Shown: piece after piece, positions 2,865 through 61,628 of the stretch | Layout of the letters: every line of letters starts with the position of its first letter | Numbering within the stretch: position 1 is the first letter of the stretch | Source: a virus | Virus record (IMG/VR): IMGVR_UViG_3300046557_000419 | Coordinates: 1 to 64,000 of that record | DNA: 64,000 nt | Reading direction: 5' to 3' (one strand) | The notes under the pieces: model-generated | Seen by the model: only the letters and a program-made list of their open reading frames with translations | Databases searched by the model: none | Told to the model about the DNA's origin: nothing | Position numbers and translations under genes: made by a program

Positions 2865-2880
2865 CTAGCACGAATGCAAA
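2865..2880 (-). promoter_or_regulatory. dispersed dyad operator site 1
   Basis: CTAGC-ACGAAT-GCAAA on the plus strand, one of the YTTGC-N6-GCAAA family, with a second GCAAA half-site 9 bp to its right. It lies about 10 bp upstream of the minus-strand ATG at 2855. Confidence 0.6.
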
Positions 2881-2908
2881 TGCGATGCAAATATTCGCGG
2901 GGCCGGCG

Positions 2909-2921
2909 GGCGCTTCGCGCC
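2909..2921 (-). repeat. hairpin repeat copy 6 (GAA loop)
   Basis: GGCGC-GAA-GCGCC on the minus strand, followed on the plus strand by AGAGTCA as in copy 4. It lies between the genes at 2505-2855 and 2949-3221. The outer pair has changed from A-T to G-C on both arms. Confidence 0.7.
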
Positions 2922-2948
2922 AGAGTCATAACCAAACCGCCCGCAGCG

Positions 2949-3221
2949 TCACCCGTCGCGGAGGTTCATCGCTTTGTAGGCCTTGAGCAGCTGGTCCGGA
3001 GGCGTCTTGGCTTTCAGGGCTTCCCAGGCCATCTTGAAGTCGATCTTCGCCTGGTCGAGGCTGCCGGCCGTGCCGATGGGGAGACCTCCGGTGAGGTGGA
3101 CGATGACGTTCCAGATCCAGATCCCGGGCGTGCGCTCGCTGGCGTATCTGATCCGGCCGACCAGCTGCTTGTCGTCGAGCACGGAATAGTCGCGGCGTCC
3201 GATTGGTCGCAGGCTGAGCAC
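2949..3221 (-). CDS. hypothetical protein, first gene of left operon (90 aa)
   Basis: Unrecognised. It is a compact alpha/beta-looking protein with GGLPIGTAGSLDQAKIDFKMAWEA near the middle. The pattern recalls small phage proteins in which a substrate-like GxAxSxxxA loop precedes a helix with AW. The start is GTG 3221, with GAGG 8 nt upstream. It is the first gene to the left of the operator array at 3245-3330 and is presumably controlled by it. Confidence 0.6.
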   Translation of the reverse strand: MLSLRPIGRRDYSVLDDKQLVGRIRYASERTPGIWIWNVIVHLTGGLPIGTAGSLDQAKIDFKMAWEALKAKTPPDQLLKAYKAMNLRDG

Positions 3222-3244
3222 GAAATCGGCCTCGTGAGGGGGGG

Positions 3245-3330
3245 TGTCAACCAGGATGACAGGGGGGGGGGTGTAATCCTGGTTGACAGGGGTGTCATCC
3301 GAGTTGACAGGGGTGTCATCCGAGTTGACA
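3245..3330. promoter_or_regulatory. operator array TGTCA-N7-TGACA x4
   Basis: Four inverted repeats of the form TGTCA-N7-TGACA lie at 3245-3261, 3272-3288 (left arm TGTAA), 3293-3309 and 3314-3330. The last two share the spacer TCCGAGT. Centres are separated by 27, 21 and 21 bp, so three sites lie on the same DNA face. The array ends 24 bp before the GTG of the leftward gene at 3221. It is a plausible binding site for a dimeric repressor that controls the left operon. The regulator is not identified in the window. Confidence 0.7.
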
Positions 3331-3335
3331 CCTTA

Positions 3336-3369
3336 AACCACCACTATAACCACCACTTGAACCACCAAC
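3336..3369. repeat. three 10-bp direct repeats, 12-bp period
   Basis: AACCACCACT at 3336-3345 and 3348-3357 is followed by AACCACCAAC at 3360-3369. The constant 12-bp phase directly beside the operator array resembles iterons or a second regulator's tandem sites. The function is unknown. Confidence 0.6.
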
Positions 3370-3503
3370 TCTTAGACTCTCGTCCCTTTTCGGGCCGAGG
3401 CGCTGGCTTTTGGCTTCGGCCGCAGGTTCCGGTCAGGAACTCCAGCCGGCAAGTTTCCACAGTTCGGGCGGAAAGGTGCCCAGGTGTTGAAACCGGGAAC
3501 CCG

Positions 3504-3519
3504 TTTGCATTTTTGCAGG
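3504..3519. promoter_or_regulatory. dispersed dyad operator site 2
   Basis: TTTGC-ATTTTT-GCAGG, lying 18 bp upstream of the -35 box at 3537. It has a partner at 3578-3593 downstream of the promoter. Confidence 0.6.
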
Positions 3520-3536
3520 GAACAACCAGAGAGGGG

Positions 3537-3565
3537 TTGACAGAACGGGGGTACCTACTGTAGGA
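3537..3565 (+). promoter_or_regulatory. putative rightward promoter (copy A of shared block)
   Basis: A perfect -35 box TTGACA at 3537-3542 lies in a 29-bp block (3528-3556) that is 28/29 identical to 22616-22644. The expected -10 position (GTAGGA at 3560-3565, 17-bp spacing) is poor, so it may need an activator. It would drive the small-gene operon starting at 3762. Confidence 0.5.
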
Positions 3566-3577
3566 CTTGCTGTAGCG

Positions 3578-3593
3578 TTAGCATTCGTGCAAA
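3578..3593. promoter_or_regulatory. dispersed dyad operator site 3
   Basis: TTAGC-ATTCGT-GCAAA, about 13 bp after the presumed -10 of promoter copy A. It is well placed to block or adjust early transcription. Confidence 0.65.
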
Positions 3594-3732
3594 CGTAACC
3601 AAGCCCCCAGGATGCGGCCCGGACAATCAGCCGGGACATTGGGCGGTGCCCGGACCCACTAACCCCATGCTGCGACCCCCGCCTCAGGCGGCGGCGCCCG
3701 GCCAGGCGATAGGAGTTCGGCGTGTCCAGGGG

Positions 3733-3748
3733 CTTGCTTGAATGCAAA
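3733..3748. promoter_or_regulatory. dispersed dyad operator site 4
   Basis: CTTGC-TTGAAT-GCAAA, followed directly by CGGAGG, the Shine-Dalgarno of the gene starting at 3762. The core spacer TTGAAT is shared by the best copies. Confidence 0.75.
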
Positions 3749-3761
3749 CGGAGGAACGCGC

Positions 3762-3887
3762 GTGAGCCATGAGCTGATCCAGTATCTCGCCTATGTGGCC
3801 GCGATCGTCCTGACCCCTGCAGTCGGCTTTGCCGTCCTCGGCCTGTTCTGGTGCGTCCGATCCCTAAAGGAGATCGTCTGGCCATGA
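3762..3887 (+). CDS. small membrane protein (41 aa)
   Basis: The GTG start at 3762 is preceded by GGAGG and by operator site 4. A hydrophobic segment covers about residues 6-28, followed by a basic cytoplasmic-type tail. It is the first of a long series of overlapping small genes, and its stop overlaps the next ATG as ATGA. A membrane role is likely. The specific function is unknown. Confidence 0.6.
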   Translation: MSHELIQYLAYVAAIVLTPAVGFAVLGLFWCVRSLKEIVWP

Positions 3888-4018
3888 CTGCTGACATCGA
3901 ATTTCTCGCCGTGCTCAGCAGAGCCATCCTCGCATTGATGATCCTGAGCGGCGGCGCCATCGCAACGATCCTGGTCGTGATCCTCATCCTGAAGCTCTTT
4001 GGGTGCCTCGATGACTGA
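3884..4018 (+). CDS. small membrane protein (44 aa)
   Basis: The ATG overlaps the previous stop (ATGA). A long hydrophobic helix spans roughly residues 14-38 (ALMILSGGAIATILVVILIL). It is translationally coupled on both sides. No family is recognised. Confidence 0.6.
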   Translation: MTADIEFLAVLSRAILALMILSGGAIATILVVILILKLFGCLDD

Positions 4019-4295
4019 CCGCGCAGACGAAATCATCGCTGCCGCCGAGCAGGCGCTGCGTGAGCGACGCGGGCGCTCCGCGCCAGAGACAAACCAAACA
4101 GCTCCCGACTGGGGCCCGCTGTACCGCTACCTGCAAGGTGTGGTGCTCGGCTGCGTCGCCGGCCTGATCATCGGCTACATCTGCGGCGCCTTCATCGGAC
4201 CGGGTCGTGACACCTGCAAGGTGCGCGCCTCCACGGCTCACATGGCGGTCTGTCTCGATGACTCGATCGCAAAAGCCAAGGGGCTGATGCGGTGA
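4011..4295 (+). CDS. membrane protein carrying an in-frame repeat (94 aa)
   Basis: The ATG at 4011 overlaps the previous gene. The N-terminal 35 residues are helical and charged. A transmembrane segment follows (GVVLGCVAGLIIGYICGAF), then a Cys-containing tail. Repeat hairpin copy 7 lies inside the coding sequence and contributes RGRSAP in frame, a sign that the repeat can insert in genes. The function is unknown. Confidence 0.65.
   Translation: MTDRADEIIAAAEQALRERRGRSAPETNQTAPDWGPLYRYLQGVVLGCVAGLIIGYICGAFIGPGRDTCKVRASTAHMAVCLDDSIAKAKGLMR
4072..4084 (-). repeat. hairpin repeat copy 7 (GGA loop, within a gene)
   Basis: GGCGC-GGA-GCGCC on the minus strand, followed on the plus strand by AGAGACA. 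It is located inside the coding region 4011-4295 without breaking the frame. Confidence 0.7.
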
Positions 4296-4630
4296 GCGAG
4301 AACCCTGGGAAGTGGCGAGACATCGAACAGCACGCTGACAGCATGACGCTCTTCGGCCGCGACTTCACGCTGCTGGTCGACGGCAAGCCGCTCGACAGCA
4401 TCCCGACGAAGCTCTTCGTCAACGAGATCGACGTCGTGACCGGCGCGATCACTGAGGTCACCTACACGACCCAGCTCGCGATCGACGAGCCGATCGAGCC
4501 GCTCAGCGAGACAGAGCAGAAGCTCTGCGATTGGTGGGCCAAGCGGATCGAGGAAGATCTGCTCCGCCAGCTCTGCGGCGCGTCCAGTGAATACGAACAA
4601 AGCCTGCGTGCGGCAGGAGCCAAAGTTTAA
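4292..4630 (+). CDS. hypothetical protein (112 aa)
   Basis: The GTG at 4292 overlaps the previous stop (GTGA). The protein is acidic and soluble-looking, with beta-rich N-terminal segments (MTLFGRDFTLLVDGKPL) and a helical C-terminus (CDWWAKRIEEDLLRQLCG). No family is recognised. Confidence 0.65.
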   Translation: MSENPGKWRDIEQHADSMTLFGRDFTLLVDGKPLDSIPTKLFVNEIDVVTGAITEVTYTTQLAIDEPIEPLSETEQKLCDWWAKRIEEDLLRQLCGASSEYEQSLRAAGAKV

Positions 4631-4682
4631 CCAGAGCCCGTGGTCTGCCCCAGGCAGCACGGCTCACCCTTTCGAGGCCGGA

Positions 4683-4994
4683 ATGTCCAAGATCGTGCCC
4701 GACCAGCTCGTTGACCTCGCGCTCGAACATCTCGACGACGAAGTCAAGCGCTGGCGGCGCGTGCCTTGGGCTCCGGGATACATCCGCCTGATGCGGTGCC
4801 CCGACATGCCGGGCCCGGCAGAGATCACCGCTCAAGCGATGGAACAGGAGATCGTCTGCCACGACGTGCCGGCCGCTCTCGCCGACGACATGATCGTCCG
4901 CTTCGCGATGGAGAAGGCCATTGAGGCCGTCATCGGTGCCATCTCGCTCGCAGTGCCGGCGCCGAAGCCGCGCAAGCGAAAGGCCAAGTCGTGA
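4683..4994 (+). CDS. hypothetical protein with basic tail (103 aa)
   Basis: The start at 4683 has GAGG 6 nt upstream. A longer in-frame start at 4587 would overlap the preceding gene. The body is helical, and the C-terminus is Pro/Lys/Arg rich (APKPRKRKAKS), suggesting nucleic-acid contact. No domain is recognised. Its last bases overlap the next ATG. Confidence 0.6.
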   Translation: MSKIVPDQLVDLALEHLDDEVKRWRRVPWAPGYIRLMRCPDMPGPAEITAQAMEQEIVCHDVPAALADDMIVRFAMEKAIEAVIGAISLAVPAPKPRKRKAKS

Positions 4995-5236
4995 TCGAGT
5001 TCATCGGGCTCGCCTGCTTCTCGCTCGGCGTCGCCACGCTCTACGCCACATGGCGGCTGTGGCTCGACGAGCCTCGCCAGATCCGTTTCACGGACAAGCT
5101 GGCAGAGGCTCTGGAAATGCCACGCTACGTCCAGCGGGCGCAGATGTACTGCCGGCTCTACGGCTATCCCGAGAGCGAGTGGGAACGGTTTCAACACCGC
5201 GCCATCGCCGACATCATCATGGAGGCGTACCGCTAA
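4991..5236 (+). CDS. membrane-anchored hypothetical protein (81 aa)
   Basis: An N-terminal hydrophobic segment (FIGLACFSLGVATLYATW) is followed by a soluble helical part. ATGA overlap with the upstream gene and TAATG overlap with the next gene show a tightly packed operon. No family is recognised. Confidence 0.6.
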   Translation: MIEFIGLACFSLGVATLYATWRLWLDEPRQIRFTDKLAEALEMPRYVQRAQMYCRLYGYPESEWERFQHRAIADIIMEAYR

Positions 5237-5430
5237 TGGAGCAGCTCTTCAGCGCGGCCCACGCTGCATCGCGGATGTACGCCAGTAGCTGGCGCCGTGG
5301 AAACATCGTCCGCGCCCAGAACCAGCTTCGCAAGAACCTGCAGAGCAAGCGCCTCGTGGACTTCTACCTCGACGAAATCGAGCGCGAAGTCGACTTCATC
5401 ATCTTCGAGAAAGACTTCGATGCCGCCTGA
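5236..5430 (+). CDS. small helical protein (64 aa)
   Basis: Starts at the ATG in the TAATG junction. It is a mixed-charge helical sequence ending in a strongly acidic stretch (YLDEIEREVDFIIFEKD). Its 3' end contains the start of the next 26-aa gene in another frame. The function is unknown. Confidence 0.55.
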   Translation: MEQLFSAAHAASRMYASSWRRGNIVRAQNQLRKNLQSKRLVDFYLDEIEREVDFIIFEKDFDAA

Positions 5431-5500
5431 GATCGCCCAAATCCTGATCAGTATCGCGATCTCGATCGCTTTCATGGTCATCGTTGCCGGGGAGGCCTGA
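5420..5500 (+). CDS. tiny membrane peptide (26 aa)
   Basis: ATG at 5420 inside the end of the preceding gene. Nearly the whole peptide is one hydrophobic helix (AQILISIAISIAFMVIVAG). It resembles the other single-helix peptides in this operon. The function is unknown. Confidence 0.45.
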   Translation: MPPEIAQILISIAISIAFMVIVAGEA

Positions 5501-5503
5501 GAC

Positions 5504-5683
5504 ATGCCCAAGAAAATTGCTGAGAAGTCCGCCGCCATCATCACGATCAAGGATGCGCCGGAGATGACCAAGCGCGGCCGGCGCCAGATCGCCGAGTGGA
5601 TGCGCAAGCAGGCGGACTTCCTGGAGTTCGAGGGTAAGGCGCTCTCGAAGCGCTTCACCGCCCGGTACCTGTACCGCGACTGA
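5504..5683 (+). CDS. small basic protein (59 aa)
   Basis: GGAGG lies 8 nt before the ATG. The protein is Lys/Arg rich (MTKRGRRQIAEWMRKQADFL) and probably helical, so it may bind nucleic acid. It is joined to the next gene by TGATG. Confidence 0.55.
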   Translation: MPKKIAEKSAAIITIKDAPEMTKRGRRQIAEWMRKQADFLEFEGKALSKRFTARYLYRD

Positions 5684-5937
5684 TGGTTACTGACCCGATC
5701 TCAACCAGCCCGAAGGCCATGATCGCCTTCGAGCTGATGAAAATTCTGGACCCGCTCGTCGGTGTTGCTGAGGCCGCATTCTTCATGCAGCGCAGCAACG
5801 ACCTCCTCGGCGGCACGACCCCTGTCACGGCAATCAAGGATGGCCGGATCGACGAGGTGCGCCGTGCCGTCCAGGCGGTCGCGATGGAGAAGGGCGTTTT
5901 CGGCGAGCCATGGCTGCCGCCGAAGACCCGACGCTGA
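5683..5937 (+). CDS. hypothetical protein (84 aa)
   Basis: ATG in the TGATG junction. The sequence is mostly helical with no recognised motif. Its stop lies 4 bp before the tRNA-Gly gene, so the transcript must be processed at the tRNA 5' end. Confidence 0.6.
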   Translation: MVTDPISTSPKAMIAFELMKILDPLVGVAEAAFFMQRSNDLLGGTTPVTAIKDGRIDEVRRAVQAVAMEKGVFGEPWLPPKTRR

Positions 5938-5941
5938 AATT

Positions 5942-13902: not shown

Positions 13903-15029
13903 TCATCTTGCCGAACTTTGGGATATCCCGGAGCGCAGGCAATCTGGCACCGGCTATCGCACTCACCTACATGACGCGCCTACAGGACAGCCCGGCTGCG
14001 CCGTCCGTCAACCTGGATATCGTGGGGAACTATCTCTACACGATCAACCAGAACAAGAAGCTGCTGATCTATGATCTCTCGACGCCGGCAAACCCGACGC
14101 TCGTGGGATCAGTGACCGACACCACTAACCTGAATGGAGCAGGCGGCGTCCGCGTCTCGCCGGACGGCACTCGTGCCTACGTGAGCAACGAAGCCGGCGC
14201 CTCGATGACTGTCTGGAACGTCAGCAACAAGGCTGCGCCAACGTTCGTTGCCACCCAGCGCGGCCCGACTCCCGGCACCTCGCTCGCTGGTGCATCAAAC
14301 CTTCGCCTGAACGCCGCCGGCACGCTGTGCCTTGTGACTACGATCACCCGCAACTCGCTCGCTCTGATCAACGTCTCAAACCCGGCAGTTCCAACCTGGC
14401 TCGCTGAAGTGACCGGCCTCAACGGCGCCCGTGACGTCTACCTCTCGAAGGATGAGAAGACGGCGTACGTGACCTGCGACTCGTCCGGCGTCATGGGCGT
14501 GGTCGACATCACGAACCCGGCTGCTCCGGTGCTGGTCCGAACCGTCACTGACGCGGCTTACGGCACGTTTGCACGCGGCATCACCATGAACGCGGCCGGG
14601 ACCAGGCTCTACACCATGGGTCCGAGCACCGCAGGCCTTGGTTGGAAGGGTTCGATCGGCATCTGGGATATCTTGGGCGCCAAGCAGAACAGTCCAACAC
14701 AAATCTCGGCGTACGTCGGCACTGCCAGCGGCACGCCCGGATATCTTGCAGGCGGTCGCGGAATGGTGCTCTCGCCTGACGAGAAGTATCTGTATGCGGC
14801 CTCCGAAGCCGGTGACAGCTTCTCGCTGTTCAACATCAGCAATGAGGCCGCAATTCAGCTCATCGAGATCAATAGGGGCGCTGTGCCTGGAACTGACCTG
14901 GACGCGGCGATGGGTCTGAAGGTCAAGGCCGGATACGCCTACATCTCGTGCTACGGGCAGGCGGCTTCTCCGGCTGGCCGCGGCATCGCAATCGTCAAGG
15001 TGGACCCGTACTACGGGACGCCAAACTAA
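13899..15029 (+). CDS. LVIVD-repeat beta-propeller protein (376 aa)
   Basis: Six to seven repeats of about 45 residues have the form LxIYDLSTPANPTLVGSV, WNVSNKAAPTFVA, INVSNPAVPTWLAEV and VDITNPAAPVLV. These are the LVIVD propeller signature. Each blade also carries an SPDGTRAYV-type strand. The ATG overlaps the previous stop. In phages such propellers sit with adhesion proteins. Here it closes the SGNH/spike cluster, so a surface-binding role is inferred. Confidence 0.8.
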   Translation: MIILPNFGISRSAGNLAPAIALTYMTRLQDSPAAPSVNLDIVGNYLYTINQNKKLLIYDLSTPANPTLVGSVTDTTNLNGAGGVRVSPDGTRAYVSNEAGASMTVWNVSNKAAPTFVATQRGPTPGTSLAGASNLRLNAAGTLCLVTTITRNSLALINVSNPAVPTWLAEVTGLNGARDVYLSKDEKTAYVTCDSSGVMGVVDITNPAAPVLVRTVTDAAYGTFARGITMNAAGTRLYTMGPSTAGLGWKGSIGIWDILGAKQNSPTQISAYVGTASGTPGYLAGGRGMVLSPDEKYLYAASEAGDSFSLFNISNEAAIQLIEINRGAVPGTDLDAAMGLKVKAGYAYISCYGQAASPAGRGIAIVKVDPYYGTPN

Positions 15030-15401
15030 TAGGTGGCATACGGCTCCGGTAACGGATGTCCGCTCTAACGGGTAAGCCAGCAGTCCCGTAGTCCTCGTAA
15101 TTCCGCACCCGCGCAAACCCGACTGATCCTCGGAACGCATGCGGTCGAGGCATAGGATGATCGACTTCTGGATTGGATCATCCCCACCTCAGCGCCGTCC
15201 GTAGCAGGCATCCCCAGCGACCGTAAGGGCAGGGGACCAAAGCGCGGACGGCGCGCTACTTTCCTCGGTCCAGCCGAACGTCACCTGATGACATAGGGGT
15301 GGCTGGTTAAACAGGAGCCATGCGTCCAACCGAGCGCTCGCGCGAGCGAGCATCGCCCGTCATCGTATTCCGGTGACGGGCACCAATTCAGGAGACATCT
15401 C
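15030..15401 (+). other. structured non-coding interval upstream of tRNA cluster
   Basis: No gene is apparent. GCGCCGTCCG (15192-15201) pairs with CGGACGGCGC (15245-15254), closing a 63-nt element that has an internal CCCC/GGGG pairing. An 11-bp stem, GCCCGTCATCG with CGGTGACGGGC, lies at 15355-15381, just before the ribosome binding site of the next gene. These look like structured leader or non-coding RNA. Confidence 0.5.
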
Positions 15402-15581
15402 ATGGGGCGCAGAGCCCGCGGACGCTATCGATGCAAGTGCGCTCACTGCCTCGGCATCGATCGCACGAAGCTCATAAAGCGCTTCGAAGCAAAACTCGTC
15501 GAAGAGGCTCTCCTCCCCGACGAAGAGAACATCTTCGACTCCTGGTACGACTGGGAGAAACACTACGATCTGCCTGGGTAG
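15402..15581 (+). CDS. small protein with CxxC, stop inside tRNA (59 aa)
   Basis: AGGAG precedes the ATG. The N-terminus is basic with CKCAHC (possible zinc site), and the C-terminus is acidic and Trp-rich (IFDSWYDWEKHY). Its TAG stop is nucleotides 8-10 of tRNA-Met, so translation and tRNA maturation compete for the same transcript. The function is unknown. Confidence 0.6.
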   Translation: MGRRARGRYRCKCAHCLGIDRTKLIKRFEAKLVEEALLPDEENIFDSWYDWEKHYDLPG

Positions 15582-15646
15582 CTCAGTGGTAGAGCAGCGG
15601 GGTCATAATCCGCATGTCGCAAGTTCAACTCTTGCCCCCGGCACCA
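15572..15646 (+). tRNA. tRNA-Met (CAT)
   Basis: Acceptor GCCTGGG/CCCCGGC (one T-C mismatch at pair 4-69), D arm GCTC/GAGC. The anticodon arm is GCGGG-GTCATAA-TCCGC and the T arm GCAAG-TTCAACT-CTTGC, with encoded CCA. The CAT anticodon could be elongator Met or lysidine-modified Ile. I cannot tell which. Confidence 0.85.
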
Positions 15647-15801
15647 TCTACGGCTCCCCGATAGGCTCTGCCTGGGGGATGGAAAAAGGCGCACCGTATG
15701 GGCGCCGGCCGCATCTAAGCCGCAAGGCGCACGCTCCCCGCGTCCCGACGACTGGTCAGTCCGTCGCTTGAAGAAATCGGGTGGGGACAAATTCAACTTG
15801 C

Positions 15802-17453: not shown

Positions 17454-18365
17454 ATGATCAAAGACCAGAAGCGGTCCCGCGCAATGATCGAGGATATCCG
17501 AAGACAACGCCAGGGGGTGATTGAGCAACGCCTTTGGCAGTCGAAAAACTTCTCTGAGGGCAAGCGTGAGGTTCCGGTTGATCCGGCGCCCGCGCCTGCA
17601 CCGGAGTCGGAGCTACCCGAACCAGACCTCGTCGAGGTCGAACCACCGAAAGAGGAAAAATTCACCATGGGTCTCCCCCATCTCGTTATCGTCGGCGCTG
17701 ACAAAGGCGGCGTTGGCAAGACCACCGTTTCTGACACCGTTCTCGGCTACTTCGCCGCACAGGGCGTGGACGCTCGCGCGATCGACACCCAGATGCCCGC
17801 TGGCAATCTGATCCGCCGCTACCCCGCCGTCACCGAGGTCATCGACCTGGCCAGCTCAGACGGCCAGATCAAGGTCTTCGACTCTCTTGGCAAACATGCC
17901 GTCACCGTGATCGACATCCAGGCGGGCTTGCTCTCGCCGACGCTGACCCTGCTCAGCGAGATCGGTCTGCTGTCCATGGTCCAGGACGGCAAGATGAATG
18001 TGACCGTGATGCACGTCATCGGCAGCACGGTGCAGTCGCTCAGCGAGATCGAAGGCGCCGCCAAGATCATCGCCGGCTCGCGCCACTTCATCGTCAAGAA
18101 CCACTCGAACGACGCCGCGTTCTTCGACGGCCTCAACGTGTCGACCGAAGCTCTGAAGATCGGCACAGCTCTGATCGACATCCCGAAGCTCGACCCCCGC
18201 GCCACCGAGTACGTGGACGCCGCAGTCGAGAAGGGACTGACCGACGCGACCTCATTCGCCGGCTACGCCAAGAGCGGAGACTCCTTCGTGATGAAGGGCA
18301 AGGTCGGTCACTGGCTGAAGGGCGTGTTCGCCCAATACGATACGGCCAAGCTGAACATCGCTTAA
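17454..18365 (+). CDS. ParA/MinD-like P-loop ATPase
   Basis: 303 aa. An about 70-residue Pro/Glu-rich N-terminal extension precedes the ATPase core. The deviant Walker A is KGGVGKTT at about residues 84-91, followed by ARAIDTQMP and a VTVIDIQAG strand. The core is about 215 residues, short for ParA. No ParB-like gene or obvious centromere repeats lie next to it. Its position between the two terminase subunits suggests a role in packaging or virion DNA handling, or a relic of plasmid partition. An internal ATG at 17668 could give a core-only product. Confidence 0.8.
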   Translation: MIKDQKRSRAMIEDIRRQRQGVIEQRLWQSKNFSEGKREVPVDPAPAPAPESELPEPDLVEVEPPKEEKFTMGLPHLVIVGADKGGVGKTTVSDTVLGYFAAQGVDARAIDTQMPAGNLIRRYPAVTEVIDLASSDGQIKVFDSLGKHAVTVIDIQAGLLSPTLTLLSEIGLLSMVQDGKMNVTVMHVIGSTVQSLSEIEGAAKIIAGSRHFIVKNHSNDAAFFDGLNVSTEALKIGTALIDIPKLDPRATEYVDAAVEKGLTDATSFAGYAKSGDSFVMKGKVGHWLKGVFAQYDTAKLNIA

Positions 18366-18451
18366 GCCTTAACGAGAACAAGCCCCCTGACGGGATCGAC
18401 CGCGGCAGCCGGAAGCGCAAGTTACCCGGTGGCGGTCGACCGCAACACTAA

Positions 18452-18561
18452 GTCCTGAATTAACAGGACGATCCGCTAGGCCAGCGGGCGTGGGGTCCTC
18501 CTTTTCGCGCTTCGGCGCACGCACGGGTGAAAGCCCGTGGGCTGCTCCTGTGGGACAGCCC
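18452..18561 (+). ncRNA. string of five hairpins before tRNA-Cys
   Basis: Consecutive stems are GTCCTG/CAGGAC (18452-18469), CCGCT/AGCGG (18473-18487), GCGC-TTCG-GCGC (18507-18518), CACGGG/CCCGTG (18522-18539) and GGGCTG/CAGCCC (18539-18561). There is no coding potential. It could be a structured leader or small RNA released when the tRNA is processed. The class is unknown. Confidence 0.45.
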
Positions 18562-18568
18562 TCAAACT

Positions 18569-18642
18569 GACGCGGTGGCCGAGCGGCCAGGCAGCGGATT
18601 GCAACCCCGCGGAGGCTGGTTCGACTCCGGCCCGCGTCTCCA
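18569..18642 (+). tRNA. tRNA-Cys (GCA)
   Basis: Perfect acceptor GACGCGG/CCGCGTC. The anticodon loop is TTGCAAC (anticodon GCA), the T arm is built around GGTTCGACTCC, the discriminator is T and CCA is encoded. Confidence 0.85.
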
Positions 18643-18673
18643 GTCACACCCAACAACAAGAAGAACAAAGAGC

Positions 18674-18895
18674 ATGTCAACGCTGACGACGCAGTACCAA
18701 AAGATGCAGATCGACGACGCCCGACTGATCACCGTGTCTGACCTGGTTCAGGGTACGGATGGCGTCTGGGTTCGCACCATCCGCTTCTATGGCGATCCCA
18801 TCACCAACGGCGCGCCCACTGCGTTCGCCGAGATCGTGATGCGCTCGGACAACCAGGTGGACCTGGAGATCCAGGCCCCGGGCTTCAAGTACTGA
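18674..18895 (+). CDS. small beta-rich hypothetical protein (73 aa)
   Basis: The ATG at 18674 follows AAAGAG. Alternating hydrophobic and polar residues (GVWVRTIRFYGDPI, FAEIVMRSDNQVDLEI) suggest an all-beta fold. It lies between the ParA-like and large terminase genes. The function is unknown. Confidence 0.6.
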   Translation: MSTLTTQYQKMQIDDARLITVSDLVQGTDGVWVRTIRFYGDPITNGAPTAFAEIVMRSDNQVDLEIQAPGFKY

Positions 18896-18978
18896 TCCTT
18901 TTTCACTCTGGTCGAGTTGCCGCTTCGGGGGCATTAGCGCGCAGCGCCTCGACCGGAGTCTAAACTCCGGAAATCATT

Positions 18979-20442
18979 GTGAACGACCTAATCGACGTGT
19001 CCCCTGAGGATGCGGCGGCCGAAATCCTGCGTCGTAGGAGGGGCCGCGAACGCCTCATCCCCTTCACAGAATACACGCTACCCAAATACAAGGCTGACCC
19101 CTTCCACAATCTCGTTGCCGACAAGCTTGAGGCTGTCGAGCGCGGCGAGATCAAGCGGCTGATGCTGTTCGCTCCGCCGCGGCACGGCAAGTCGGAACTG
19201 TCGACCAGGCGTTTCCCGGCCTACTTCATGGCCAGGAACCCAGACAAGAACGTGATCTCGGCGTCGTACAACGGCGACTTCGCGACCACGTTCGGACGCG
19301 ACGTCCGCAACATCGTCAAGGGCAAGGAGTTCGCGACACTCTTTCCGGACACCAAGATCCGCAGCGACAACCGCGCTGCTGACGAGTGGGAGCTGGAGCA
19401 GGGCGGCAAATACTTCGCGGTCGGCGTCGGCACCGGCACCACTGGTAAGGGCGCCCATCTCTTCCTGATCGACGATCCGATCAAGGACCGCAAAGAGGTC
19501 AACTCCGCCAACTTCCGTCAGGACCAGTGGGACTGGTACCGCGACGTCGTTTACACCCGTCTCGAAGAGGACGCCGCAATCGTCCTCACGCTGACGCGGT
19601 GGCACTACGACGACATCGCCGGCCGCCTCATCGAGCTGATGAACGACAAGAAGGGTCTCCCTTGGGAAATCCTCTATCTTCCGGCGCTGCCCTACACCAC
19701 CAAGATCAAACGCGAAGATGGCACTGAAGAGCTGATCCTCAACGAGGATGGCACGGTCCCTGGCGATCCTCTCGGCCGAAAGCCGAAAGAGCCGCTCGCG
19801 CCGCGACGCTTCTCCTACAACGCGCTGATGGACCGCCAGGACGTTCTTGGCGAGAGGTCATTCGCTGCGCTGTATCAGCAGAAGCCGATGGCTGACGACG
19901 GCGGCATGTTCAACGCCGCGTGGTTCGAGAACCCGGCTGAGCTGCCCGCCAAGCGTGTCCGCGTGCGTGCGTGGGATTTGGCGGCATCAGCTGATGGCGA
20001 CTACACGGTCGGCGTCCTGATGTCGAAGGACTCCAACGGCATCTTCTACATCGAGAACGTGGTCCGCATGCGCGGCACCCCACTCGAAGTCGAGAAACTG
20101 ATCTTCGACACCGCCAAGAACGACGGCCGGTCTGTCCAGATCATCCTCCCGCAAGACCCTGGCCAGGCTGGCAAAGCCCAGGTGCAGAGCTTCATTCGCC
20201 GGCTCGCCGGCTACATCGTCAAGGCCGTCCGCCCTACCGGACCAAAGGAAACCCGTGCTGCCGCATTCGCTGCGCAGTGCGAGGCAAAGAACGTGAAGAT
20301 GGTGAAGGCTCGTTGGAACGACTGTTTCACCGATGAGCTGGAGACGTTTCCGCTTGGTGTCAATGACGACCAAGTGGACGCAGCCGCCGACGCATTCAAC
20401 GCACTCCTCGGTCCGCGCAAGGCCGCGGTCCTTGACTGGTAA
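18979..20442 (+). CDS. terL: terminase large subunit
   Basis: 487 aa. The ATPase Walker A-like APPRHGKSE lies near residue 66 and Walker B LFLIDDP near residue 160. The coupling motif is TLTRWHYDD. The RNase H-like nuclease has its first Asp in WDLAAS (about residue 331), then DPGQAGKAQ and the final DDQVDAAADAF. All catalytic acids appear intact. It translocates DNA into the prohead and cuts it. GTG start at 18979. Confidence 0.93.
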   Translation: MNDLIDVSPEDAAAEILRRRRGRERLIPFTEYTLPKYKADPFHNLVADKLEAVERGEIKRLMLFAPPRHGKSELSTRRFPAYFMARNPDKNVISASYNGDFATTFGRDVRNIVKGKEFATLFPDTKIRSDNRAADEWELEQGGKYFAVGVGTGTTGKGAHLFLIDDPIKDRKEVNSANFRQDQWDWYRDVVYTRLEEDAAIVLTLTRWHYDDIAGRLIELMNDKKGLPWEILYLPALPYTTKIKREDGTEELILNEDGTVPGDPLGRKPKEPLAPRRFSYNALMDRQDVLGERSFAALYQQKPMADDGGMFNAAWFENPAELPAKRVRVRAWDLAASADGDYTVGVLMSKDSNGIFYIENVVRMRGTPLEVEKLIFDTAKNDGRSVQIILPQDPGQAGKAQVQSFIRRLAGYIVKAVRPTGPKETRAAAFAAQCEAKNVKMVKARWNDCFTDELETFPLGVNDDQVDAAADAFNALLGPRKAAVLDW

Positions 20443-22608: not shown

Positions 22609-22624
22609 TTCTTGAAGAGAGGGG

Positions 22625-22653
22625 TTGACAGAAGGGGGGTACCTGTGCTTAAT
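22625..22653 (+). promoter_or_regulatory. sigma70-type promoter (copy B of shared block)
   Basis: TTGACA (22625-22630), 17-bp spacer, then CTTAAT (22648-22653). It lies in the 29-bp block nearly identical to 3528-3556. Transcription would start inside or just before operator site 5 and lead into the gene at 22682. Confidence 0.65.
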
Positions 22654-22655
22654 CA

Positions 22656-22671
22656 TTTGCTTGAATGCAAA
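22656..22671. promoter_or_regulatory. dispersed dyad operator site 5
   Basis: A consensus copy TTTGC-TTGAAT-GCAAA that begins 2 bp after the -10 box of promoter B and ends just before the ribosome binding site of the gene at 22682. Confidence 0.8.
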
Positions 22672-22681
22672 TGGAGTGACC

Positions 22682-22975
22682 GTGAAGCTCTTCACCCGCC
22701 GCAGCGCCCTCGCCGAAGCATTTCACCTGCCTCTTTGGGGTCAGGCGGCTGAGGAGGTTCCGCCCCATTGGCTGATCTCGCGACTGCAAACGGGTGATCT
22801 GGCGATCAATCGCCTGGGCGGCATGACCATGCACACGCAGTGGGGCGTGCAAGAGAGCGCCGCAGGAGACTACGTGCTCCTGTTTGCCGACAATTCCATC
22901 GGGTTCGAAAAGCCCGAGACGTTCGAACGAGACTTCGAACCCTTCACGTCCGAGCAGCTCAAAGCCGCCGCGTGA
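22682..22975 (+). CDS. hypothetical protein under operator/promoter B (97 aa)
   Basis: The GTG at 22682 has GGAG 5 nt upstream. The earlier ATG inside the operator runs into a stop. The protein has a helical start (RRSALAEAFHLPLWG), a W/H-rich middle and an acidic end (FERDFEPFTSEQLKAA). It is the only gene between promoter B and the terminator at 23022, so it is a monocistronic, regulated unit. It could be a regulator or moron. No family is recognised. Confidence 0.65.
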   Translation: MKLFTRRSALAEAFHLPLWGQAAEEVPPHWLISRLQTGDLAINRLGGMTMHTQWGVQESAAGDYVLLFADNSIGFEKPETFERDFEPFTSEQLKAAA

Positions 22976-24375: not shown

Positions 24376-24400
24376 CGCCCGGATTCTGTCCGGGCGTTTG
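24376..24400 (+). terminator. terminator-like hairpin fused to operator
   Basis: CGCCCGGA-TTCTG-TCCGGGCG is an 8-bp stem directly followed by TTTG, the left arm of operator site 6. It could attenuate transcription from the scaffold gene into the capsid gene. Confidence 0.6.
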
Positions 24401-46813: not shown

Positions 46814-46841
46814 TTGACCGTCTCGTTTGCATTCTGATATT
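46814..46841 (+). promoter_or_regulatory. putative promoter for transfer-protein gene
   Basis: TTGACC (46814-46819), then GATATT (46836-46841, 16-bp spacer). The -10 overlaps operator site 7. A TTTGCATT half-site at 46826-46833 lies in the spacer. Confidence 0.5.
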
Positions 46842-46855: not shown

Positions 46856-46936
46856 AGTTGTGCTATCCCCGAGGCCGAAATCTCGGGGGTAGGCACTCCC
46901 TCGTGGTTCCGGGTTCCCAACCAACCACAGGGCAAA

Positions 46937-48931: not shown

Positions 48932-48947
48932 CTTGCACGAATGCAAA
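48932..48947. promoter_or_regulatory. dispersed dyad operator site 8
   Basis: CTTGC-ACGAAT-GCAAA, directly followed by the GGGGGAG ribosome site of the next gene. Its ATG is in frame with that gene. Confidence 0.7.
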
Positions 48948-54254: not shown

Positions 54255-54886
54255 GCTGCGATCTCCGTGGCTTGGACGTTGTCGTTGTCGAACTTGCTTA
54301 TCTCGTTGCCCCAGGCGTCCCAGCCGGGGCGCTGCACGCGGGCGAAGATGTCGGCCTTCGGATATGGCCCAGCCATCTTCGCGGCATCGACGTAGCCTTG
54401 CTCGGGCTTGCGCGAGTGCTCGCGGCGCGTCTCAAGGATTGCGGAGCGGATGTTGCGAGAGTGAATGCGGGGCTTGCCGATCTTCCCGATCAGGAAAGGC
54501 TCATGGCAGTTGCGCAGGACGTAGCCCGTGCCGAAGGTCGGCCGGCTCATATCCTTGACCATCTTCACCCACACGCCCTGGGTCACGTAGGTGACGTTCC
54601 ACTGGCGGAAGCACTCGCGAGCGGCGTCGTACATCGGCGCGGTGGCGTAGAGCCAAACCCACATGCCATCGCGATGGGCGAGGCGATCAACGTCGAGCGC
54701 GAAGATGTCGTCGAGCGTCATGCAGTCGTAGTGCTGCTCAGCCGACTTGCCCTTGCCGGCGTCGGAGTAGGTCTTGAAGGTCCACGGCGGGTCGATCTTC
54801 GCGAGGCCGTAATGGTTCTCCTTCAGCGGAGCGAGATTGAATGTCGGTGCCGGGATGATCGGCATGGGGCTGACGAGCATTTGCAT
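54251..54886 (-). CDS. MT-A70-type DNA/RNA adenine methyltransferase
   Basis: 211 aa. The catalytic DPPW motif (AKIDPPWTFKTYSD) lies in the first third. MWVWLYATAPMYDAARECFRQW and NCHEPFLIGKIGKP follow, the MT-A70/Ime4 order. It probably methylates adenine N6 in phage DNA, protecting it from host restriction. GGAGG lies 9 nt before ATG 54886, which is inside operator site 10. Later in-frame ATGs exist at 54880 and 54865. Confidence 0.85.
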   Translation of the reverse strand: MQMLVSPMPIIPAPTFNLAPLKENHYGLAKIDPPWTFKTYSDAGKGKSAEQHYDCMTLDDIFALDVDRLAHRDGMWVWLYATAPMYDAARECFRQWNVTYVTQGVWVKMVKDMSRPTFGTGYVLRNCHEPFLIGKIGKPRIHSRNIRSAILETRREHSRKPEQGYVDAAKMAGPYPKADIFARVQRPGWDAWGNEISKFDNDNVQATEIAA

Positions 54887-54895
54887 TCAAGCAAG
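54880..54895. promoter_or_regulatory. dispersed dyad operator site 10 (minus orientation)
   Basis: On the minus strand this reads CTTGC-TTGAAT-GCAAA. It spans the TGA stop of the upstream gene and the ATG of the methyltransferase (TGAATG), so operator and coding junction coincide. Confidence 0.75.
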
Positions 54896-55114
54896 CCTCC
54901 GGGTACGACTCGACTTCACCTCGTCCTTCGTGGCTTCGAGGTAAGCGGCCATGCCGGACTCGGTGATCTTGAATTGGTCGCCGTAGGAGGGGTGCTTCTC
55001 CTTCACGAAGAGGCCTTGCTCCGCCAGCTTCTCGGTCGTCTTGCGCATGAAGAGGCCCCAACCACCGGGGCGGGTTGCCGCATCTCTCAGCGCGTCGATC
55101 TCTCTCTTCTTCAT
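54887..55114 (-). CDS. small winged-helix-like protein (75 aa)
   Basis: ATG in the TGATG junction. KKREIDALRDAATRPGGWGLFMRKTTEKLAEQGLF reads as a helix-turn-helix followed by a wing (VKEKHPSYGDQFKITESGMAAY), a common layout in phage regulators. The DNA target is unknown. It could bind one of the operator families described here. Confidence 0.6.
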   Translation of the reverse strand: MKKREIDALRDAATRPGGWGLFMRKTTEKLAEQGLFVKEKHPSYGDQFKITESGMAAYLEATKDEVKSSRTRRLA

Positions 55115-56146: not shown

Positions 56147-56829
56147 TACTTGGCGTCCTCCTGCGTAAAGTGGTTGAAGCCATCAGCGCCGACGAAGGGC
56201 TCGCACTTGGTGACCTTGCCCTCCTTCACCGCGCGCTCGACCAGATCGAGCATCTCGGAGGTGACCACGCCCTGATGCCCCTTGGCGCGGTAGCTCGAAA
56301 CAGCACGAGCCCGGAGCTGGATGCGGGGCGAGAGCGTCTCGATCAGGTTGTCGGTCTTGACGGGCTGAACCTCGACCTTGCGCTCGACGTAGATCTTCTT
56401 GGGCTGCTGCGGCGCGGAGACTGCGACGCCACGGGCTGCCGCTGCCTGCTCGATGGAGAGACCGGCCTCGATCTCCGCAGGCGTGCGACGGAACCGCTTC
56501 GCCTTAATCTCGACGGGTTTCTCCGCTTTCACGGTCCTCGGCCGACCGCGGGCCTTCTTCACCTTCTGTGGCAAGCTGGCACGAGCTGCCATGGCCTGCT
56601 CGATGGTGAGGCCGAGTTCGATCTCCTGCATGTTCCGCTTGAACCGCTTCGTGGCGGCCTGCGGAGCAATGATCGTTGCGAGTTCGTTAACAACTTGGGT
56701 TGTCACGACCGGGGCCGTCATGGCGATCGGCGCAGCGGTATCCTTTGCCGGAAAAACAGGCAAAACCCTCTTAAAAAAAGCTCTCAGGCTCGATCCAAGC
56801 ACGTTCGGAAATCCCTTCATCGTTTGCAT
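56146..56829 (-). CDS. AT-hook-like DNA-binding protein with duplicated motif (227 aa)
   Basis: Two copies of a 23-residue unit occur, in part KRFKRNMQEIELGLTIEQA and KRFRRTPAEIEAGLSIEQA. They flank a basic KKARGRPRTVKAEK with an AT-hook-like GRP core. The C-terminus is helical. It is probably a nucleoid- or DNA-binding regulator. The start at 56829 lies near operator site 11, and ATG 56820 is an alternative. It heads the leftward cluster. Confidence 0.6.
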   Translation of the reverse strand: MQTMKGFPNVLGSSLRAFFKRVLPVFPAKDTAAPIAMTAPVVTTQVVNELATIIAPQAATKRFKRNMQEIELGLTIEQAMAARASLPQKVKKARGRPRTVKAEKPVEIKAKRFRRTPAEIEAGLSIEQAAAARGVAVSAPQQPKKIYVERKVEVQPVKTDNLIETLSPRIQLRARAVSSYRAKGHQGVVTSEMLDLVERAVKEGKVTKCEPFVGADGFNHFTQEDAK

Positions 56830-56835
56830 TCGGCA

Positions 56836-58946: not shown

Positions 58947-59362
58947 GTCGTCTTTCCTTTCATCCAGCTCAGCTGCTGGCCCATCATCAGACCTTCCATA
59001 GGCACCTCGACATCCCCGAACAAGAGTCTGAAGGTCGGCATCAGGAACTCGCGATAGCTGACGCCTGCGAGCACGATCGCCTTCGTGCCCATGATGCGTT
59101 GGCGCTCCAGTTGTTCCTGGACCATGGCCGTCCAGTCCTTTCGGAGTTTGACGCCGAGGCCATTGAGCGTGAGATCGTACGGGTCCGTGACACGGTACGG
59201 ATGGAGCAGGCCAGCGCTGGCCGACAGGATGAACCACCGGTCGGCGTTGCGGCGGGCGTACTCCTTCGCCATCTGGAACCACGGGGAGATGTAGAGGTCC
59301 TGCGCCGGAAGCGGTCGGTCCGCCTTGGTCTTCACGCAGGATACGAATGCGACTCGGGTCAT
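58943..59362 (-). CDS. DUF6884-like phage protein (139 aa)
   Basis: VAFVSCVKTKADRPLPAQDLYISPWFQMAKEYA and WFILSASAGLLHPYRVTDPYD match the DUF6884 pattern (VSC-K-K..pA-dLY-Sp-F, LSA-hGLl-P). Proteins of this family are often near queuosine/7-deazaguanine-type modification genes, but none is visible here. ATGA overlap with its neighbours. Confidence 0.75.
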   Translation of the reverse strand: MTRVAFVSCVKTKADRPLPAQDLYISPWFQMAKEYARRNADRWFILSASAGLLHPYRVTDPYDLTLNGLGVKLRKDWTAMVQEQLERQRIMGTKAIVLAGVSYREFLMPTFRLLFGDVEVPMEGLMMGQQLSWMKGKTT

Positions 59363-59745
59363 GATGCCAATCCTGCCCAGTGAAGTTGATGGGTGTCGTC
59401 GAAGATCCAGCCGGAGATGCGGCCGACCTGCGATGGCGACGCGCGGTTCTGACGCATCCAGGCGTAGGCGCCGTTCTCGGCCGCGTGCGTGACCTTCACA
59501 TGGTAGCCGCTCGACCTGATCTCGCCCGGCGAGCCCAACATGAACTTCCGCAGAGGCGAGAGCCCGCTCCAGGCGCCTGCAACACGGCTGCACATCAGGT
59601 CGAAGGTTTCGTCGGTCATGAACGACTGGTCGTGGCGATAGTAGAGCAGGGACGCGACGACGATCTGCCGAGCACAGAGGTCGAGCGATGGCCCAGCCTC
59701 CTTCGCGGGCGGCAGGTCGGCAAACAGATCCAGCGTCTCGCTCAT
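59359..59745 (-). CDS. hypothetical phage protein (128 aa)
   Basis: VASLLYYRHDQSFMTDETFDLMCSRVAGAW and MLGSPGEIRSSGYHV resemble stretches of the DNA ligase N-terminal domain, where SPxxxIxDxxYD precedes LGSP. The catalytic Lys region is absent. It is a widespread phage small protein of unknown role. Confidence 0.55.
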   Translation of the reverse strand: MSETLDLFADLPPAKEAGPSLDLCARQIVVASLLYYRHDQSFMTDETFDLMCSRVAGAWSGLSPLRKFMLGSPGEIRSSGYHVKVTHAAENGAYAWMRQNRASPSQVGRISGWIFDDTHQLHWAGLAS

Positions 59746-60047
59746 TGTGACCTCTTCGGCGGTGCCGGCCGGCGCATCCAGTGCGTCGCCTTAACCTCTG
59801 GGGATAGCGCGTAGCCGGGAGGCAGACCTCCGGACGGGTACCAGCCCGGTCGGTTCGGCGGGAAGTGCCGCCACCGCACGTCTGTCACCCGGCCCTGGAG
59901 CATCGGCTGACCACGCTTCACCTGGTAGGCACCGGGGCAGTAGAACTTGACCATGCTGTGGTCGACGTCCGGGCCGGCGCTCTCGATCCAGAGATCCACC
60001 ACTGACCCATCTGTCGGCGCGCTGTCGATCGCCTCCCACTCGCTCAT
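59742..60047 (-). CDS. small phage protein (101 aa, DUF551-like)
   Basis: WEAIDSAPTDGSVVDLWIES, then VTDVRWRHFPPNRPGWYPSGG and THWMRRPAPP, the W-I-sAPtDG...THWMpLP order common in phage proteins. The function is unknown. Confidence 0.7.
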   Translation of the reverse strand: MSEWEAIDSAPTDGSVVDLWIESAGPDVDHSMVKFYCPGAYQVKRGQPMLQGRVTDVRWRHFPPNRPGWYPSGGLPPGYALSPEVKATHWMRRPAPPKRSQ

Positions 60048-60298
60048 CGGAACGCCTTGCATGCGTCGCCGCTCCGGAAGGTGCCGGAGGGGCAGGCCGT
60101 GCCGGGGATGTACGGGTATGCGCGCGGGGTGTCCTTGTGGAGCGCCTCGCACTTGTCGCCGAGTCCGACGTAACCCGTGGGGCACGTTCCAGTGCGCTGG
60201 ATGCGCTCCCTGCCATCTGGAGTCGGTGTGGGATATTTGGTCTCGGCGAGCGCAGGGGCTGCCAGGGTAAGCAAGACGAGGGCGATGATCTTCTTCAT
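60044..60298 (-). CDS. secreted Cys-containing small protein (84 aa)
   Basis: Signal peptide (MKKIIALVLLTLAAPALA) followed by a polar mature domain. Its two paired-Cys blocks (TCPTGYVGLGDKC, ACPSGTFRSGDAC) are repeats of one unit. It is probably exported and disulphide-bonded. The function is unknown. It lies beside the integrase and may be expressed from the prophage. Confidence 0.65.
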   Translation of the reverse strand: MKKIIALVLLTLAAPALAETKYPTPTPDGRERIQRTGTCPTGYVGLGDKCEALHKDTPRAYPYIPGTACPSGTFRSGDACKAFR

Positions 60299-61536
60299 GG
60301 CTGATCTCCAATGATCTTTTTCAGTTCCTGACTGAGCAGTATTGAAACCGCCCGCTTCTCGGGCAGCATGTCGTATTTGTCGTAGACGGCGGTGACGTCG
60401 CCATCGATGTGGTCGAGCATTGCCTTGACGTCCGGTCGCGGGGCGCCGCAGCGCCGGGCAAGAGTGGCCGCGGTGCGCCGGAGGTCGTGCGGGGTGAAGT
60501 GTTCCATCTTGAGGAATGACCGAATGCCGACCCGGTTCGAGCGCTCCTTGTCGTTCAAAGCCTGAGACAAAGAGCTGCGCTTGATCTCGACCTTCTCCCC
60601 GTACTTGGATGGGAAAAGACAGACCTGCTTCTCGTCCTTGATGGCGGCCTTGATGACCTCCGTTGCCAGCGGCGAGACAGGCACGATCACCTCGCGCCGG
60701 CCCTTCACCCTGATAGGAGGCATCTGGTACTGGGCATGCTCCGTGCCGAGCCCGCTGATCTCCGACAGGAGGGCGCCGGCCGCCTGGTATGGTCGGACCA
60801 TGGTGGCCAGAACCATCTTCAGCGCGAGCGCCACCTGGCGATCACAGGGCACGTCCGGATGCTCCAGACCCCACCAGAGCGTCCTAATCTCGTCGTCGGA
60901 TAGGACCCTGTTCCGAGCCTTCTCCGATCCGCCGCGGCGCTCCATGCCGGTGATCGGATTGGAGGGCACGTATTTCCGGCCGGGCTGCCTGGCCCATTCG
61001 AACATCTTGTGGATAACCGACTGCGTCCGGTTGGCGCTGATCGGGGCATCCTCGGCGATCTCGTCGAGGACATCGGCAATGTCGTCGTCCGTCACCGTGT
61101 GCGCTGGCATGTGCCCCAGGGCGACCTTGGGGCGTTTCAGGTAGCCCTCGTCGTTCTTCCAGGAGGACTTGTTCGGCTTTGCGTACTCCTCCATGTAGGC
61201 GTCGCAGAGAGCTTCGAACGAGAGATCCTCTGCACGGGCCGCAGCACGCCGCTCGCGCCGCTGTTCGGATCGGGGGTCCTTGTCGTCGCCGATCTTCTTG
61301 CGCTGCTCGGCGGCCTTCTCTCGGGCCAAGGCGAGGGAAATGTCCGGATACCGACCGAGCGATATCCGGACCGCCCGCGAGAGCAGGGGCGACCAATAGG
61401 TGAGCGCGAAGGACTTGGCGCCGGACTTGAACACCCGGACCTTGAGCCCGGGGCAGGCATCGTCCGCGACGTCGATCTGCTCTTTTTCTTGGGGGCATTT
61501 GAGCCCTGTGATATGCTTGTCAGTGAGCCTTGGCAC
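60295..61536 (-). CDS. int: tyrosine-type integrase (413 aa)
   Basis: The N-terminal arm-binding domain (LTDKHITGLKCPQEKEQIDVAD, LGRYPDISLALAREKA) is of the P4/DUF4102 type. The catalytic residues are an Arg in MVRPYQ, a Lys in IRVKGRREVIVPV, HDLRRTAATL, and the Tyr in VYDKYDM. The start GTG 61536 has GGAG 6 nt upstream. A TTG at 61548 is also possible. It integrates the phage at the tRNA-Pro gene whose 3' part lies 160 bp upstream. Confidence 0.92.
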   Translation of the reverse strand: MPRLTDKHITGLKCPQEKEQIDVADDACPGLKVRVFKSGAKSFALTYWSPLLSRAVRISLGRYPDISLALAREKAAEQRKKIGDDKDPRSEQRRERRAAARAEDLSFEALCDAYMEEYAKPNKSSWKNDEGYLKRPKVALGHMPAHTVTDDDIADVLDEIAEDAPISANRTQSVIHKMFEWARQPGRKYVPSNPITGMERRGGSEKARNRVLSDDEIRTLWWGLEHPDVPCDRQVALALKMVLATMVRPYQAAGALLSEISGLGTEHAQYQMPPIRVKGRREVIVPVSPLATEVIKAAIKDEKQVCLFPSKYGEKVEIKRSSLSQALNDKERSNRVGIRSFLKMEHFTPHDLRRTAATLARRCGAPRPDVKAMLDHIDGDVTAVYDKYDMLPEKRAVSILLSQELKKIIGDQP

Positions 61537-61612
61537 CCTAGTCTCCAACTTCGAAAATCCAGCAGTTTGCCTTACCTACAGTGAAGGAAAGCCTGATGCT
61601 TGGTGGACCATA

Positions 61613-61628
61613 TTTGCATCCGTGCAAG
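61613..61628. promoter_or_regulatory. dispersed dyad operator site 12 (minus orientation)
   Basis: Minus strand CTTGC-ACGGAT-GCAAA, about 75 bp upstream of the integrase start. Another GTGCAAG half-site lies at 61630-61636. It may control int or bind near the attachment site. Confidence 0.65.

Follow-up and report, generated by a model that had tools for sequence, protein, structure and literature searches.

The DNA analyzed here, called the window, is a stretch of 64,000 nucleotides that corresponds to bases 1–64000 of IMG/VR virus record IMGVR_UViG_3300046557_000419 (hereafter G000; 72,276 bp). The coding fraction of the window is 0.893, and a 16-bp dyad, YTTGC-N6-GCAAA, recurs at its gene junctions, among them those ahead of genes for the capsid, a DNA transfer protein, a methyltransferase, and an integrase. 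Among named phages, the closest relative found is Bradyrhizobium phage BDU-MI-1 (KY940711, 121,342 bp), and G000 is a fragment of a Bradyrhizobium myovirus related to it. In a second record, G001 (119,289 bp, circularly permuted), two main blocks match G000 at 97.8 and 99.2% identity, and 39 distinct IMG/VR loci were recovered with the capsid protein. BDU-MI-1, G001, G002, G003, G006, G009, G011, G012, G013, and G014 were read whole. Gene calls and gene starts are those made in this analysis, and site counts include orthologues unless otherwise stated. G012 was excluded from counts of position, orientation, and promoters because its motif is poorly defined, and two sites at record ends were dropped.

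The motif is confirmed as genuine. A first-pass annotation, made from the letters of the window, had listed twelve sites with an exact 5-6-5 layout. The layout held, but the exactness did not: 8 of the 12 places carry YTTGC-N6-GCAAA without deviation (3733, 22656, 24397, 46840, 48932, 54880, 56836, and 61613), and the remaining four are one or two arm bases off (2865, CTAGC..GCAAA; 3578, TTAGC..GCAAA; 49424, TTTGT..GCAAA; 3504, TTTGC..GCAGG). Counted per strand, matches to the exact pattern number 12 against 0.11 expected, and none of 100 shuffles reached 12. We also scored the window with a matrix built from 107 sites of BDU-MI-1, G003, G006, and G011 (the outside matrix), which is independent of the first-pass picks, although these relatives share ancestry with the window. 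Eleven of the 12 sites scored at least 19.8 bits; at 13 bits the doubtful site at 3504 was missed and one coding match was gained (40335, 13.5 bits). Forty order-1 Markov shuffles gave mean match numbers of 0.28 (≥13 bits), 0.03 (≥17), and 0 (≥20), the top shuffled score being 19.7. Ten of the 11 matrix-supported sites are intergenic, one (54880) straddles a TGA-ATG junction, and none lies within a gene, which bears out the earlier statements that 54880 spans such a junction and that no site is buried deep in a long gene. The comparison with shuffled and coding sequence that the first-pass annotation had proposed likewise came out in its favor, matches being far rarer there than at junctions. 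Additional sites are present in G000 outside the window, at 66001, 66557, and 68621.

Table 1. Dyads, half-sites, and predicted promoter elements in the window (scores from the outside matrix)
Feature	Sequence	Position	Strand	Score (bits)	Context
Dyad	CTAGCACGAATGCAAA	2865..2880	+	23.0	Antisense to leftward gene 2505-2855, 9 nt from its start
Doubtful weak dyad	CCTGCAAAAATGCAAA	3504..3519	-	Below 13	Kept in G001
Dyad	TTTGCACGAATGCTAA	3578..3593	-	24.5	Divergent control region, downstream of predicted promoter (TTGACA 3537-3542)
Dyad	CTTGCTTGAATGCAAA	3733..3748	+	29.9	13 nt before first rightward gene (3762)
Predicted promoter	TTGACA-N18-TTAATC	22625..22654	+		Immediately 5' of dyad 22656
Dyad	TTTGCTTGAATGCAAA	22656..22671	+	31.9	Covers expected transcription start; 10 nt before gene 22682
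Dyad	TTTGCTTGAATGCAAA	24397..24412	+	31.9	34 nt before capsid gene (24447)
Additional half-site	TTTGCATTC	46826..46834	.		14 nt ahead of dyad 46840
Perfect dyad	TTTGCATGAATGCAAA	46840..46855	+	30.9	Before DNA transfer protein gene (46937)
Dyad	CTTGCACGAATGCAAA	48932..48947	+	26.8	Fills 30-nt gap, stop 48928 to start 48959
Dyad	TTTGTTTGAATGCAAA	49424..49439	+	29.7	Fills 30-nt gap, stop 49420 to start 49451
Dyad	CTTGCTTGAATGCAAA	54880..54895	-	29.9	Spans TGA-ATG junction before MT-A70 methyltransferase gene
Additional half-site	TTTGCATTC	56823..56831	.		Adjoins dyad 56836
Dyad	TTTGCTTTAATGCAAA	56836..56851	-	28.3	Before leftward unit 56146-54251
Integrase head	CTTGCACGGATGCAAA (dyad)	61607..61635	-	19.8 (dyad)	Predicted -35 TTGCAC 61635-61630; dyad 61628-61613; predicted -10 TATGGT 61612-61607

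With at most one mismatch, the pattern is present in all 16 phage records scanned (a single match each in G015 and G016); a control pattern, read backwards, gave 0 matches in these records and one each in G075, G149, G039, and G171. Eight records of 100–128 kb hold 23–37 sites each at a score of at least 19, of which 0–3 per record are within genes. As the first-pass annotation had expected of related phages, the sites recur at the same gene junctions (G012 is counted in the following totals, though its sites were unscored). Of the phages compared, 10 of 11 have a site before the small gene at 22682, 9 of 11 before the capsid gene, 8 of 9 before the SSB gene, 8 of 9 before the gene at BDU-MI-1 27115, 6 of 10 before the DNA transfer protein gene, and 6 of 8 before the methyltransferase gene (54880); site 48932 was found in all six phages having the gene, and site 49424 in 8 of 10. 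The dyad at 2865 stands at the same place in G001 and G003, the variant form of the dyad at 3578 recurs in the divergent regions of BDU-MI-1, G001, G002, G003, and G014, and the promoter-dyad layout of 22625–22671 resembles that in BDU-MI-1 and several relatives. The motif itself is often GAATTCAAA in G013 (23 of 54 matrix matches of at least 10 bits, some background included) and often TTTGATCG in G014.

Read with the gene, the site consensus is YTTGCWYGAATGCAAA, its right half nearly fixed and its left half looser. Sites scoring at least 19 comprise 186 sense and 17 antisense at same-direction intergenic places (orthologues counted separately), 49 in divergent regions, and 12 within genes. 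Removal of near-duplicates at a score of at least 21 left 212 sites (161 sense, 10 antisense, and 41 divergent), and at same-direction junctions of at most 60 nt the ratio was 56 sense to 1 antisense, orthologues counted. The earlier claim that orientation follows the downstream gene is correct in the window apart from 2865, which is antisense, and 3578, which lies in a divergent region. The gap from site to start codon peaks at 10–13 nt. The in-frame ATGs noted within the sites at 48932 and 49424 do exist but are probably incidental, as a Shine-Dalgarno (SD) sequence and another ATG follow each (48959 and 49451). The gene at 54880 may begin within its dyad, with GGAGG just 5' of it.

Covariation between the two arms is absent: at all five arm positions the counts of paired bases match the shuffled mean or fall just below it, and arm changes comprise 173 single against 8 double ones, of which 3 keep the pair, all as C-G at the outermost pair. 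Because the arms vary independently, each half is under a constraint of its own, as in protein-bound DNA; because they do not covary, we conclude from this pattern of variation that the element is a DNA dyad and not an RNA stem.

Predicted promoters meet the dyad in four recurring layouts. In layout A the left arm is the −35 and TGNTA stands 21 nt from the start of the site, in 20 of 212 sites versus 0.39 per position elsewhere; at 46840, for example, the left arm would be usable as a −35 with TGCTA at 46861–46865. In layout B, as at 22656, TTGACA and a −10 lie just 5' and the dyad is over the start point. Layout C, seen at the integrase dyad (61613), has the −35 just before and the −10 just after the dyad, and layout D has TTG[AC] at −11 (37 of 212 versus 1.5). 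None of the four places the dyad at the usual activator positions near −41 or −61. With the dyad covering the −35, occupying the spacer, or covering the start, these layouts would suit a repressor. Among tight sites (start codon at most 20 nt away), 61 of 81 lack any word of layouts A–D, and no promoter words were seen around the tight sites at 48932 and 49424.

The candidate binder is a CI-like protein of 229 amino acids (BDU-MI-1 15009–15698, annotated as hypothetical). All 9 of 9 near-complete records have an orthologue; the helix-turn-helix (HTH) part of the one in G013, trimmed off by the gene caller, lies in the same open frame. Neither of the fragments, G000 and G014, yielded the gene. 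It is likely that the repressor gene of this phage lies outside the G000 fragment and is itself preceded by dyads. Both CI-like proteins scanned matched Pfam HTH_26, a Cro/C1-type HTH (27.3 and 22.1 bits, cut-off 22). An AlphaFold2 model (mean predicted local distance difference test score 76.3, predicted template modeling score 0.50) retrieved lambda repressor first in Foldseek (E 1.5e-4) and LexA next, and UmuD also matched; a PDB sequence search with the CI alignment gave 0 matches. Under a relaxed consensus, an antisense dyad of type TTTGCGYGGATGCTAA is found upstream of the CI-like gene in 21 of 23 regions, and a second dyad lies 35–37 nt further upstream in 16 of 23, several of these loci being near relatives. 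We chose CI over the other DNA-binding proteins because of its conservation, its fold, the dyads before its gene, and one distant homologue. A replication initiator is likewise encoded. A phage CRP/FNR-type binder was considered and rejected: HTH_Crp_2 matched weakly in 12 of 13 records and above cut-off in 2, the strongest matches belonging to a replication-initiator family with HTH_36. The HTH protein that the first-pass annotation had put forward as binder (54887–55114) gave no Pfam or PHROG match at E 0.001. In G002, the gene at 18311–19159 carries a CI-like HTH (hmmsearch E ~1e-22) fused to a domain that is free-standing in eight other phages; its product is possibly an antagonist sharing the DNA-binding part of the repressor.

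The phage is temperate, with prophage within host chromosomes. In G075 (contig of 9.09 Mb), 16 of 16 matches with at most one mismatch fall within 3,466,904–3,553,969; the CI-like gene lies there too, as does a capsid gene with 77% identity to that of the window. In Bradyrhizobium hipponense aSej3 (G017), 24 of 25 matches are on the prophage contig (144,687 bp). G471 and G485 were searched for the dyad and the CI-like gene. In each, most matches cluster in a single interval that surrounds the CI-like gene: 16 of 17 within 111 kb in G471, and 25 of 28 within 119 kb in G485, where two more are at the contig start and one is elsewhere. Eleven further genomes of the family without the prophage hold 6 matches in total. 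Since nearly all copies in the four host genomes lie in or beside the prophage, we take the dyad not to be a host operator. Of the genomes sampled, CI-like genes were detected in 4 of 146 for the genus, 3 of 391 for the family, and 1 of 397 for the order, and the order-wide search for CI homologues returned no genome besides the starting one. A lone CI homologue (G144:C1:8537426) resides on a contig of 9,207,384 bp in which neither the dyad pattern nor the capsid gave a match; a palindrome, TTTGCATGCAAA, stands at the start of this gene and is the sole copy in 40 kb.

We favor the reading that a CI/LexA-fold repressor encoded by the phage itself uses the dyad genome-wide as its DNA operator, both on promoters and at stoperator-like sites, and would give it a probability of about two in three. 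The first-pass annotation had seen in the motif a dispersed, oriented dyad resembling stoperators but of unrelated sequence, and our analysis supports that view. In a lysogen, the repressor would occupy the 16 bp with one subunit on the strong half GAATGCAAA and the other on the weaker half YTTGCWY. For sites on promoters, position suggests that initiation would be blocked. At the tight stop-site-SD-ATG junctions within operons, where a promoter was not seen, RNA polymerase arriving from upstream would be blocked instead, and such an elongation block could be the reason that the asymmetric sites point with transcription. The weaker dyads upstream of the repressor gene may tune its own level.

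The sequences themselves establish the motif, with its excess, location, orientation, conservation, and confinement to the prophage, and a conserved CI-like gene; binding, repression, and elongation block we infer. Several observations count against this reading. The promoters in all four layouts are predictions. A dimer on a dyad offers no obvious cause of orientation dependence. The S24 domain reached 12.2 bits in one of the two CI-like proteins scanned, below the cut-off of 23.3, and the full-length fold match has a low template modeling score (0.35–0.44). The dyads ahead of the repressor gene are weak (mostly 14–20 bits) and in the opposite orientation. In G012 the repressor is present, yet the motif has drifted and is poorly defined. 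Finally, a Cro-like HTH protein and a D5-like protein, each encoded in 7 of 9 records, could be the binder. As for self-cleavage residues, the alignment, read by eye, shows the presumed Ser as Thr in 3 of 8 proteins and the expected Lys as an invariant Arg, with Ala in G013. The more specific proposal, that a 120-kb proteobacterial myovirus is kept silent by a CI/LexA-fold repressor whose self-cleavage site is degenerate, through a direction-dependent RNA polymerase block at dozens of dyads genome-wide, as a stoperator system arisen apart from that of mycobacteriophages, is tentative, and we consider the odds to be somewhat against it.

The dyad might instead be a lytic promoter or activator element through which a phage factor (D5-like, Cro-like, or other) turns on middle or late genes. 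Such a role would account for the orientation with the gene and the fixed place ahead of genes, the left arm does coincide with the −35 in one layout, and suitable D5-like and Cro-like proteins exist. The right arm, however, which would fall within the spacer, is the best conserved part; the sites stand in several registers to the predicted promoter boxes, none of them the usual activator place; at the tight sites there is no space ahead of the SD for a start point; and the D5-like and Cro-like genes, by our gene clusters, were each found in only 7 of 9 records. We regard activation as rather unlikely, though the likeliest of the alternatives. The least probable of them is an RNA hairpin governing translation or mRNA stability: many sites do lie just 5' of the SD, at the gap peak of 10–13 nt, and the 5-nt arms could pair, but the arms show no covariation, with only three compensated changes, the stem is broken in common forms (an outer C-A in 53 of 212 sites and a C-T beside the loop in 18), and one promoter layout would initiate transcription inside the dyad.

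Host regulators of the CRP/FNR type (FixK2, NnrR) could bind the sites and tie the phage to the oxygen state. The core TTGC-N6-GCAA does fit the FixK2 consensus of Bradyrhizobium, TTGA/C-N6-T/GCAA, given in PMC6710368, and the changes in G013 and G014 stay within it. Unlike the FixK2 box, the dyad is longer and oriented; the FixK2 consensus includes neither its centre GAAT nor its outer bases, both of which are fixed in the phage; and the 16-mer is nearly confined to the prophage in the four lysogens, against 6 copies in the 11 other genomes. We therefore consider this explanation improbable. The host regulator PhaR was also considered and rejected, its motif as given in PMC10888616, NGCN(3)GC[GA]N(3), being unlike the dyad. 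Segregation, packaging, or replication sites (ParB-like or similar) that are intergenic by chance would fit dispersed dyads with neighboring half-sites, but not their strict link to gene junctions and transcription direction, and the prophage sits in chromosomal contigs; such a role is more improbable still.

A phage repressor acting on such an operator would have parallels in several known systems. Dispersed intergenic repeats of temperate phages include the conserved inverted repeats of phiC31 and the start-associated sequences of Cluster K. Lambda CI uses few operators; the candidate resembles lambda CI and LexA in its Cro/C1-type HTH and predicted fold, and differs from them in having dozens of sites and an apparently degenerate S24 domain. 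According to PMC6550527 and PMC9283540, phages of the L5 type (Cluster A) carry 20–30 sites genome-wide, mostly in one orientation with transcription, at promoters and in short intergenic gaps; reversal of a site abolishes repression. These stoperators are 13-bp asymmetric sites bound by a monomeric Rep with an HTH and a Stoperator domain. The strong sites of the eight records described above are like those of Cluster A in number, one-sided orientation, and location in short intergenic gaps. Unlike them, the site here is a 16-bp, two-armed near-palindrome with an asymmetric centre, and the candidate protein combines an HTH with a putative LexA/CI-like C-terminal domain (L5 Rep was compared by description).

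P1, a temperate myovirus, has 22 dispersed, asymmetric C1 operators, as described in PMC8546580. The sites of P1 are likewise dispersed and, in the stretches viewed, lie on or near promoters. The P1 operator is, however, a 17-bp asymmetric sequence, ATTGCTCTAATAAATTT, whose longest block shared with the dyad is 10 nt (2 of 212 sites), and a comparison of P1 C1 with the CI-like protein showed no similarity (best E 12). Both the site and the candidate protein differ from their counterparts in L5-type phages and P1; we therefore propose a working likeness to L5 stoperators and P1 C1 operators, not membership of either group. The P1 C1 operator consensus has the block TTGCTCTAAT in common with the sites TTTGCTCTAATGCAAA at BDU-MI-1 42199 and G003 4400, perhaps by chance. 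A literature search of partial coverage, in titles and abstracts, found nothing on this dyad. If the favored reading is true, stoperator-like control extends beyond actinobacteriophages and can be exerted by a protein of ordinary CI-type fold, and the one-directional stopping of RNA polymerase by a bound repressor could be studied in a well-known protein class. The motif also marks such prophages in Bradyrhizobium genomes and would predict which junctions answer to immunity, and its shift in G013 offers a natural test case for co-evolution of repressor and site.

The leftward unit 56146–54251 encodes an RNA-binding-like protein, a dCMP deaminase, and the methyltransferase. The window contains four tRNA genes (Gly 5942, Met 15572, Cys 18569, and Asn 23214), and an Rfam scan of it at gathering score gave nothing besides these. 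Directly adjoining the capsid dyad is a GC-rich inverted repeat, CGCCCGG-ATTCTGT-CCGGGCG (24376–24396), which has a similar counterpart in several relatives; G012 and G014 lack a good dyad ahead of the capsid gene and have a hairpin with a T-run after it at that place. The window has two copies of a promoter-like stretch, AGAGAGGGGTTGACAGAA..GGGGGTACCT, at about 3529–3560 in the divergent control region and at 22616–22650 before gene 22682.

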